Shown piece by piece: positions 2,561 to 5,182 of a stretch of DNA of 64,000 nucleotides. Origin of the DNA: Fulvia fulva. Its lineage: Eukaryota; Ascomycota; Dothideomycetes; Mycosphaerellales; Mycosphaerellaceae. The stretch's first letter is position 1. Every line of letters starts with the position of its first letter. Made by a program: the position numbers and the translations under genes. Below the pieces are notes generated by a model, which saw nothing but the letters and a program-made list of their open reading frames with translations, made no database searches and was not told the DNA's origin. The stretch is from positions 1,798,001 to 1,862,000 of the forward strand of contig NC_063019.1 of assembly GCF_020509005.1 (NCBI RefSeq), given 5' to 3'.

Positions 2561-4650
2561 GTTGTCGAGGTGTTCGTGGGTTGAAAATCGCTTTGTTGTT
2601 GTGTGCAGTGGAGTCGAAGGCAGGAGCTGAAGCGGGAGATTACAGCACAATAGGGATCATAACAAAGCCAGTCGAGTCCCGTGCGCGAGGTGGCAAACTC
2701 AAACAGCGAGCTGTGTTGGAATGCGGTCGCTTTCAGATAGTGATGCAGAGGAGAATGGCGTTGTCGTGGTCGAAAGCAGAGGTTCTGTGTACAGTCGCAA
2801 AGAAGGTCGAATGCAGTGGTATGTAAGGCTGGGTGCTGCGGAATGAGCAAAGGGCAGAGGGGAAGAGAGGCGGGAAGACGAGTCTGTTTCAAGAGCTGGC
2901 GCAAGGTCACTGGTCAGGCAAGCCAGGCGCCACACACTTTACTAGCTCCACATCAATGACATGGATAGCGCTGGAAGTCCCCTGCGAATCGGCCTAGCCA
3001 GCCAGTCACACACGGTCGCGTTGCGACGGATGCAGGCTGTGAGTCTCGAAGACAACGATCTTTGCCCTGCGACAAGTTTAGTCTCCCAGCAGTAGCTGCC
3101 TGGCGAATATGGACCAGGTGGCATCCAACAATCAGGTCATGGTCTTGATATCCATCGCTACCAGACACTTTGTTGGATGTTGTTTCGTTGTCGTGTGCAA
3201 AGGCAACCACTTCACCATGTCTGGTGACTGGCGGTGGCCTCACTTTCGAGTCCGCTGGATTCGCTACCCGACGCTTGCCGCGACGACGGCAGAGCACGGT
3301 GACAGCAGAGATCCGTCCTGCATGACTGGCGCAAGCGCTTGCACTGCCATCTCTGCAGATGGTTGAGGGCTATGCCTCTCAAGGTTAGACCTGTCTCTTC
3401 ACAGACAGCGCAGCGCCCCGTTCCCACACCACCCACCACGCTCGTGGCAGACCGCTCTTCTCGACTGCGTGAGCATTGTTCCCGCTTTGGTACCACCTGT
3501 TGAGCTCGATTTGCTCCTCCTGAATTGCCTTGCACGTGCCTTGTGACCAGAGGAACTTCATGCTGTAAGATCTGGGGGAAGCAAGCCATTCAAGGTGCTG
3601 ATGGCGGCGTGGTACAGCAGGGCGTCTCGCTCAATCACCCGGTTGGACAGTAAGGTTCGCGGGCAGCAGCCGCTGTCATCATCAGGGTTCTTCCACGATT
3701 GAGGGCGAAGGGTCTGCCTCTGTACATCCAAGATGCATCGGCCCGTTGGATGTAAGGTAATGCTCAACCCGCGCAACCAGGAGATGGGTACGCACATCAT
3801 TTAGTGGACTGGATGGTCTTTGATGGTATCGAGGAGCCTGCAAGAGCGTGACGTGGTAGACCAGCTCCAGGATAAAGAGTTGGTTGAGACCAGAACAAGG
3901 CCACAAATAGTGTTGTGTCACAAGAGCAGGACATATCCCAGGCAGTGCAGCTTCTAGAAGCAGCATCCAGGTAGAATTGCGCAAGACCACGAGACTTCCC
4001 GGTGAATGCTGTTGAGACTGCAAATCGCATGTCACACGCAAGACCAGAAGTCAGTACCTTCCCACGCACCGTGAGAGACTGTATCGCTGGGTCGCCTGGC
4101 GCATACTCATCCGCATTGCTGCTGAAATCCTGATTTGCAGGGTTGGACTGGGAGCGATCGTGTCGCAAGATCTCGCACTTGAAGTATCATCGATTTCGGG
4201 ACTCAGGAAAGATGCGTGTGTCGCTGGTAGAGATGCGAGCAAGAGCGGTCGCATGGACATTCGTATGCCGCATGAGGCTTGTTAAGCAATGCACTGTACG
4301 ATGCAAGTTCGGGCGCTGAACAGGAGGGTCAATATACAGCACGATGCACCTCGTGACTTCCATGTCTTCTCGACTTCCGTCGAAGCAAGAATTGCAGCTA
4401 ACTATCGCGTTTAGGATGGCACGCCCGTCTGCGCGTTTCCTCTCACCGTTGGATCTGATCAAGATGCTGTCCTTGCCCAGTGGTATGCCTTTTTCTGAGG
4501 AATTGTCTCTGACATCGTGACTGCTCGACTTTCCGACTCTCGAAGTCTTAAAGTTGCACCCTCGAGCCCGTCCAAATTTCGGAGCACAGAATCAAAAGCT
4601 ATATATATTACTACGGAGTTGATCGCGATATCTCCGACCACTGTTCGTCC
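2561..4650. other. 2.1 kb interval without a supported gene
   Basis: Both strands carry many open frames of 60-125 codons, none with a recognisable motif, splice structure or consistent codon bias. The proximal part is probably the promoter and 5' leader of the 1928-2560 gene. The distal end carries a TATATATATTA tract just upstream of the tRNA gene. I find no further RNA gene here, though small non-coding RNAs cannot be excluded by eye. Confidence 0.4.
4600..4610 (+). promoter_or_regulatory. TATA-like tract upstream of tRNA-Leu
   Basis: TATATATATTA lies about 40-50 bp before the first base of the tRNA. An upstream TATA element could help position TFIIIB, which would matter here because the internal B box is interrupted. 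It could equally serve RNA polymerase II. The assignment is inferred from sequence and spacing only. Confidence 0.35.
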
Positions 4651-4687
4651 GGTGAGATGTCCGAGTGGTTATGGAGCTGCGTTTAGG

Positions 4688-4702
4688 TTTCCTAAGCATG
4701 AT
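4688..4702 (+). other. Canonical tRNA intron after position 37
   Basis: This 15-nt segment sits directly 3' of G37. Its CCTAA (4691-4695) can pair with TTAGG (4683-4687), which includes the anticodon. That is the anticodon-intron helix expected in a substrate of the tRNA splicing endonuclease. Without it the anticodon loop would have 22 nt. Confidence 0.8.
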
Positions 4703-4725
4703 CCGCAGTGGCTTTGCTTCGTGGG

Positions 4726-4779
4726 GTATGTTACTCTCCAACTCCACCTTCTCAGCGTCACGCCCTAACAGTTTTCCAG
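4726..4779 (+). other. Spliceosomal-type intron inside the tRNA T arm
   Basis: This 54-nt segment begins GTATGT and has CTAAC at 4765-4769. It ends TTTTCCAG, with the branch A (4768) 11 nt before the terminal G. These are the features of a short ascomycete U2-type intron. Its removal joins T stem GTGGG directly to TTCAAATCCCAC and restores a perfect T arm. The junction is ambiguous by one G. The tRNA parts carry no decay. Confidence 0.75.
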
Positions 4780-4833
4780 TTCAAATCCCACTCTCATCAA
4801 AATTCAGAACACGAGAGAGTTACGACCACATTC

Positions 4834-4838
4834 TTTTT
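4834..4838 (+). terminator. Candidate Pol III terminator
   Basis: A run of five T lies 35 nt after the tRNA discriminator base. A shorter TTTT at 4772-4775 falls inside the T-arm intron and might itself cause premature Pol III termination. Confidence 0.4.
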
Positions 4839-4839
4839 G

Positions 4840-5182
4840 CCGTTCTACGTCGGATAGCGGTGATTTTATACCAATTACATGTCTTATGGCTAACGATATG
4901 GTACGGTAACCCATGCTGTAGCTCGTGGGAAAGAGGTGAACGCTTTTTTGCTAGCGGCAATTCCAGTACGGCTGTTGTGTGATAGAGGTACACGGTCTGG
5001 GCAAGAGATGGCTTTGTATACATGGAGACTGCCATGATAGAAGCAGCGGCCTGGGGCAGTGAGCTGCGGATGGCTCTGATCTGTCAAGTCGCTCCATCGA
5101 TTCGGCAGTCGTTCGCTCTGAAGGTTGGTCACAGGCAGCACAATTTAATCAACAATGCTTTTCCACCTCTCTACTTCCACGT
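4840..5182. other. Intergenic between tRNA and ERG8 3' end
   Basis: No supported gene. The minus-strand frames overlapping here have no recognisable features. The right end is the 3' untranslated flank of the phosphomevalonate kinase gene. Confidence 0.45.

Follow-up and report, generated by a model that had tools for sequence, protein, structure and literature searches.

Introns of nuclear tRNA genes, as they are known, are cut out by a protein endonuclease, and spliceosomal introns are carried by other non-coding RNA genes, among them the rRNA genes of ascomycetes. To our knowledge, no precedent exists for spliceosomal introns in tRNA genes. In the available part of one paper, eukaryotic tRNA genes are said to be limited to one intron, and archaeal tRNA genes to have up to three (PMC8450103). 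In Cyanidioschyzon merolae, 79.1% of the tRNA genes (34 of 43) are disrupted, permuted ones included, and the same excerpts describe ectopic tRNA introns whose processing does not involve the spliceosome (PMC3978253). The tRNA genes of Cyanidioschyzon, of the Guillardia nucleomorph and of the Crenarchaeota resemble those reported below in being cut at many positions, with several introns per gene. Nevertheless, their ectopic introns are mostly of the bulge-helix-bulge type and not of the GT-branch-AG type, and many of those in Guillardia have no defined motif.

Spliceosomal introns in small structured RNAs offer the other point of comparison. Fission yeast U6, a Pol III transcript, carries an mRNA-type intron (PMC10484740, in its accessible portions). 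There, splicing removes a U2-type intron from a small Pol III transcript, as is proposed here for tRNA precursors, but the case concerns a single gene whose only intron lies near the catalytic nucleotides and is attributed to reverse splicing, whereas in Fulvia fulva (C. fulvum) tRNA genes of many isotypes carry up to five introns and the U6 match is uninterrupted. Fungal U3 snoRNA genes also carry spliceosomal introns (available text of PMC5832005). Like the ascomycete rRNA genes, they are non-coding RNA genes with ordinary spliceosomal introns, but the RNAs are different ones, and tRNA genes are not among such intron-bearing genes in the accessible portions of the U3 and rRNA literature examined. 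Introner-like elements of Fulvia fulva and its relatives represent recent spliceosomal intron gain, with elements up to 99% identical (excerpts of PMC4457414), whereas the tRNA introns of C. fulvum are not near-identical and are weakly structured. The word "tRNA" is absent from the available text of the introner papers (PMC4457414, PMC9860276) and from the available main text of the C. fulvum genome papers (PMC9453070, PMC10823647, PMC3510045), and no report of spliceosomal introns in nuclear tRNA genes was found among the papers listed from the open full-text journal literature, going by titles and the starts of abstracts.

The window analysed here is a 64,000-nt stretch of the genome of Fulvia fulva, the tomato leaf-mould fungus (RefSeq GCF_020509005.1, contig NC_063019.1, positions 1,798,001 to 1,862,000). 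A first-pass annotation had proposed that it holds a tRNA-Leu(UAG) gene with a 54-nt intron-like segment exactly between T stem and T loop, and a direct reading of the sequence bears this out: positions 4651-4799 of the + strand (genome coordinates C8:1802651-1802799) form a tRNA-Leu(UAG) gene in three exons. Its parts and the candidate signals around it are as follows, with the source of each assignment in brackets.

4600-4607, + strand: candidate Pol III TATA element TATATATA, 51 nt 5' of the tRNA start (sequence).
4651-4687, + strand: exon 1, with the acceptor 5' strand GGTGAGA (4651-4657), the D arm, the anticodon stem 5' strand, the anticodon TAG (4684-4686) and G37 (4687) (cloverleaf parse; ARAGORN on the spliced sequence).
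4688-4702, + strand: canonical 15-nt tRNA intron at 37/38, of the splicing endonuclease type (parse; ARAGORN i(38,15) on the spliced sequence).
4703-4725, + strand: exon 2, with C38, the anticodon stem 3' strand, a 12-nt variable arm and the T stem 5' strand GTGGG (4721-4725) (sequence and parse).
4726-4779, + strand: spliceosomal-type intron of 54 nt that separates the T stem (53) from the T loop (54), reading GTATGT...CTAAC...TTTTCCAG (GTATGT..CTAAC..CAG; cloverleaf-only cut, up to 1-nt slide).
4765-4769, + strand: branch-site sequence CTAAC, with the branch A (4768) at a distance of 11 nt from the intron's final base (sequence).
4780-4799, + strand: exon 3, with the T loop TTCAAAT (4780-4786), the T stem 3' strand CCCAC (4787-4791), the acceptor 3' strand TCTCATC (4792-4798) and A73 (4799) (parse; ARAGORN).
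4834-4838, + strand: candidate Pol III terminator TTTTT in CTTTTTGC, 35 nt 3' of the gene (sequence).

The ordinary 15-nt intron after G37, the class II cloverleaf and A73 were also as first annotated. Without both introns the gene has 7/4/5/5 stem pairs, one acceptor pair being G-U. ARAGORN found no tRNA in the window, nor in the unspliced gene, but called tRNA-Leu(tag) with a 15-nt intron after removal of the 54 nt, and Rfam gave only a chance match on the whole stretch. When cuts of 40-70 nt were placed freely, with no splice motif, two best cuts 1 nt apart were tied, one of them GT..AG. A solver that seeks a cloverleaf after removing zero to five GT-branch-AG introns, run over both strands of the stretch in 634 overlapping windows, returned a single solution scoring at least 17, which was this gene (21.8; next 12.7). 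The 54-nt insert in the tRNA-Leu(UAG) gene is not a product of chance. The nearest long ORFs lie on the - strand and the gene lies on the + strand, and it is thus not part of a neighbour's mRNA. A second tRNA-Leu(UAG) gene was sought with an anticodon-arm pattern, which gave one further place that is not a tRNA. For the 149 bases of the gene itself one place was listed, the gene's own, in a search that passes over very common words and has little power for short or interrupted sequences. A whole-tRNA query for Asp found none of the Asp genes already identified, so that this query, like another whole-tRNA search that listed a lone gene, says little about further copies.

The same arrangement recurs elsewhere in the genome. 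The D-arm pattern of tRNA-Leu matched the window gene, two further loci (L026 and L027) that are both interrupted by GT..CTRAC..AG segments, and one place unlike a tRNA. The B box GGTTCRANYCC occurs 182 times, against 229 times for the reversed pattern, and many of the 182 places must therefore be due to chance. The solver was applied to 138 distinct B-box occurrences; the sample leaves outside 39 of the 182 places as well as genes with an interrupted or other B box, and the intact B box of every sampled gene is a selection criterion and not a result. Solutions scoring at least 18 were obtained for 40 of the 138 occurrences, and the 98 without such a solution include chance sites and perhaps further tRNAs. 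Three loci with an uncertain parse (L119, L020 and L106) and the repeat-borne L014-L019 were dropped before counting. Among the 37 confident B-box tRNA genes that are left, 31 need spliceosomal-type introns to be removed, from one to five per gene and 60 altogether: nine genes have one, 17 have two, four have three and one, a tRNA-Leu(CAG) gene (L027), has five, while six have none. The 31 intron-bearing genes cover Ala, Asp, Gln, Glu, Gly, Leu, Lys, Pro, Ser, Thr, Tyr and Val. The ordinary 37/38 intron is also present in 35 of the 37, a frequency far above that of the well-known yeasts.

The T-arm site of the window gene recurs as well. A genome search for CTRAC..AG directly before the T loop gave 8 places against 19 for the control; besides the window gene, five of the 8 were examined, of which three are not tRNAs, one is a partial, tRNA-Ser-like match (L154) whose T-arm-site intron is recognised by eye only, and one is a tRNA-Arg(ACG) gene (L152) that carries one intron at position 9 and another at the T-arm site found in the window gene. 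L154 and a tRNA-Leu(AAG) gene (L161) are intron-bearing by eye but gave no solver solution, and both were left out of the counts. The T-arm intron is as real as first annotated; what did not hold is its standing as a lone oddity, since such introns are the rule among the B-box genes examined.

Intron-free tRNA genes exist as well. With 63 of 1234 candidates scored, the Rfam tRNA model listed 22 matches across the 67 Mb, and this list favours uninterrupted tRNA genes. Six intron-free genes outside the B-box set were solved from these matches (L002, L004, L005, L006, L012 and L013), namely genes for Cys, Val, Ser, Arg and Leu(UAA) and a sixth, and one intron-free tRNA-Tyr was called by ARAGORN only. 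Six of the 22 matches are repeat copies: L014-L019 are near-identical 115-nt tRNA-like matches with the same adjoining bases at six places (C1:10675274, C2:4010719, C5:4745140, C9:2445509, C12:312588 and C4:5392158), and they represent a tRNA-like sequence carried by a dispersed repeat.

The 60 introns share one grammar. They are 49-63 nt long with a median of 54, G stands at intron position 5 in 58 of 60, and the branch motif is CTAAC in 34, CTGAC in 11 and another in 15, with the branch A 10-12 nt from the intron end in 57 of these 60 introns of other tRNA genes. Both the 5' splice consensus and a CTRAY branch site near the 3' end are thus those of U2-type introns. The GT..AG ends (60 of 60) follow by construction: GT, AG and a motif resembling a branch site were conditions of the solver, and the intron letters therefore reflect them in part. 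It was free to choose any length of 42-130 nt and any branch spacing, with a soft preference for 11. A motif-free test, in which cuts were placed freely in 10 single-intron genes (the window gene and nine others), gave a unique best cut in five (four Gly, one Asp), and all five cuts were GT..AG. Ties including GT..AG were obtained for the window gene (two tied cuts), L157 (4), L072 (12) and L133 (47, only two of them GT..AG), whereas none of the 32 tied best cuts in a tRNA-Thr gene (L130) was GT..AG, which speaks against the motif-led solution for that gene.

Moreover, solutions of this quality did not arise from shuffled sequence. In 1680 control sequences with dinucleotide-shuffled flanks, in which T arm and acceptor end were kept, any parse was obtained in 107, a score of at least 16 in 33, at least 17 in nine and at least 18 in one (18.1, intron-free); the 28 intron-bearing genes known when this control was run scored 19.9-22.6, and no shuffle reached 19.9. 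ARAGORN gave the right anticodon for 3 of 33 intron-bearing genes (the 31 B-box genes, the window gene and L152) when unspliced and for 31 of 33 after excision. The spliced sequences of L111 and L115 were called as tRNAs with another anticodon, and their parses are therefore less sure. No firmer case for gene structure and splice grammar can be made from sequence.

Copies of the same tRNA give an independent view of the intron borders. Mature sequences are 100% identical among five Gly(GCC), four Glu(CTC), two Thr(AGT), two Asp(GTC) and two Gln(CTG) genes, while same-site introns within these groups are 40-85% identical, their canonical introns 23-90%, and their 100-nt flanks 12-55%, apart from one downstream pair at 87%. 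Random intron pairs (n=60) have a mean identity of 42% and a maximum of 59%. The comparison skipped pairs whose parsed mature sequences are less than 90% identical, which removed the Lys pair L115/L144, and Asp L160 and Glu L157 were also left out. One Gly gene (L011) lacks the spliceosomal-type intron present in its four identical paralogues (L030, L036, L061 and L147), and the intron borders are thus fixed directly; likewise, Thr L133 lacks the position-9 intron and Asp L055 the position-11 intron of their paralogues. Identical exons around diverged introns argue against pseudogenes: selection, or homogenisation that sees the exons only, is what a spliced RNA predicts, and a pseudogene would not be expected to leave such a pattern.

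Signals expected of Pol III genes are enriched around the interrupted and the uninterrupted copies alike. Of 33 intron-bearing genes, 20 have a TATA element at -65..-20 and 13 have none in this interval (control windows: 15 of 193 with TATA); all six intron-free genes have one (controls: 2 of 42). A T5 run lies within 60 nt downstream of 29 of 32 intron-bearing genes (control windows: 9 of 309) and of five of six intron-free genes (controls: 2 of 78). The region of the A box (mature positions 8-19) is interrupted in 8 of the 37 genes, so that their classical internal Pol III promoter should be weakened, and the TATA element may stand in for the interrupted box. By eye, T5 followed by GC is often seen 3' of tRNA genes, for example at 4833-4840 of the window (CTTTTTGC); this uncounted motif is longer than a plain terminator needs.

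Depletion of T runs within the introns was considered as proof of Pol III transcription and rejected. T4 or longer occurs in 4 of 55 introns against 7.4 expected from shuffles (P 0.11), and T5 in 0 of 55 against 1.45 (P 0.20), neither a significant depletion, so that they give no proof that Pol III constrains the introns; 15 candidate mRNA introns in the window, mechanically derived and some perhaps spurious, have short T runs too, and T-run content therefore decides nothing. As for other Pol III genes, the one U6 match listed (47 of 3200 candidates scored) is uninterrupted and has, by eye, TATA upstream and T6 at its end, and for 5S, with 47 of 3102 candidates scored, 18 matches were listed, all full length and uninterrupted; such introns are thus absent from the U6 match and the listed 5S matches. 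Going by the upstream and downstream signals, Pol III likely transcribes the intron-bearing tRNA genes. The first-pass annotation had taken an intron of this type to imply Pol II transcription or an unusual crossover of pathways; that Pol II must transcribe the gene does not follow, since fission yeast U6 has an mRNA-type intron (PMC10484740, available text) and the intron-bearing genes keep TATA and T5 like the intron-free ones.

The explanation that we favour is that the window gene is a working nuclear tRNA-Leu(UAG) gene, one of many with U2-type introns at varying positions. Pol III, placed by the upstream TATA and the B box, would make a precursor ending at the T5 run, the spliceosome would remove its GT-AG introns (one to five, each about 54 nt long), and the tRNA splicing endonuclease would remove the 37/38 intron to leave a normal tRNA. 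Removal of these introns by the spliceosome is very probable, and transcription by Pol III is the less certain part. The proposal that a U2-type intron entered the tRNA gene and is removed by the spliceosome thus finds strong support at the sequence level. The other possibility raised on first pass, a single freshly inactivated gene, is rejected in view of the recurrence of such introns in 31 of 37 confident genes and of the conserved mature sequences of paralogues whose introns have diverged.

A broader form of that idea would make the intron-bearing copies as a class pseudogenes broken by insertion, with translation served by intron-free tRNA genes elsewhere. Such genes do exist (six of the 37, the six derived from Rfam matches and the ARAGORN-only Tyr), and more may lie among the 39 B-box places outside the sample or among genes with another B box; however, the intron-bearing paralogues are identical in mature sequence while introns and flanks have diverged, stems are complete or nearly so, promoter and terminator signals are kept, and the Rfam model, with 63 of 1234 candidates scored, listed 22 matches in 67 Mb, six of them repeat copies, so we hold this to be very improbable. 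We assign the same slight chance to the reading that the tRNA splicing endonuclease excises these introns from unusual positions, as happens in Cyanidioschyzon, nucleomorphs and archaea, and that their GT-AG look is incidental. Ectopic tRNA introns processed without the spliceosome are known (PMC3978253, in excerpts) and the ordinary 37/38 intron accompanies the others in nearly all genes, but all five unique cuts made on the cloverleaf only are GT..AG, 57 of 60 introns have a branch-like CTRAY 10-12 nt before their end, and no special structure is seen in the introns (mean folding z -0.15); a bulge-helix-bulge type leaves the GT-branch-AG grammar unexplained.

Transcription by Pol II with ordinary co-transcriptional splicing, and no Pol III, is a variant of the favoured explanation, compatible with spliceosomal removal, and we regard it as unlikely, though better placed than either of the two readings above. 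Spliceosomal introns as a rule belong to Pol II transcripts, eight genes have an interrupted A-box region, and intronic T runs are not significantly depleted; against this, T5 lies just downstream of 29 of 32 genes, intron-free tRNA genes and, by eye, U6 have the same signals, and the window gene runs opposite to the nearest long ORFs, outside the neighbour's mRNA. For an assembly or sequencing artefact nothing was found in favour, and introns of differing sequence with one common grammar on many contigs make it next to inconceivable. The introns were also considered as introner copies, a candidate that was rejected. Introner-like elements have stable predicted structure, whereas 63 introns gave a mean folding z of -0.15 with one below -2; introns of different tRNA genes are not alike, being 42% identical on average and at most 59% in 60 random pairs, and a search with the window gene, weak for short or very common sequences, listed no near copy of its intron.

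Taken together, it is probable that most nuclear tRNA genes of C. fulvum, across many isotypes, are Pol III units from which one to five U2 introns have to be removed, that decoding depends on the spliceosome, that TATA and B box replace interrupted A boxes, that introns are still gained and lost between copies, and that this state may be shared by related Dothideomycetes. If true, this would be a new class of tRNA intron that joins two processing pathways thought to be separate, Pol III precursors could be spliced several times over, and the production of tRNA would need the mRNA-splicing machine. Given that precedents are known for parts of the arrangement (U6, U3 and rRNA) and none for tRNA genes, it would be a new kind of tRNA gene. 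It bears on the open questions of whether the spliceosome needs Pol II, how intron insertion sites are chosen and how fast introns are gained and lost; intron presence differs among copies with identical mature tRNAs, which thus offer a test of intron turnover rate. Moreover, tRNA finders can overlook most genes of this kind, as ARAGORN was right for 3 of the 33 that bear introns.

Two minor observations concern individual loci. L023 (C2:275612-275715) is tRNA-Glu-like by eye, with a defective T arm and acceptor, and may be a decayed gene or a tRNA with a hidden intron. Two distinct tRNA-Asp(GTC) sequences are present, one in L037, L055 and L160 and the other in L111. All three copies of the first form 6 of 7 acceptor pairs, the fourth being a C-A mismatch.
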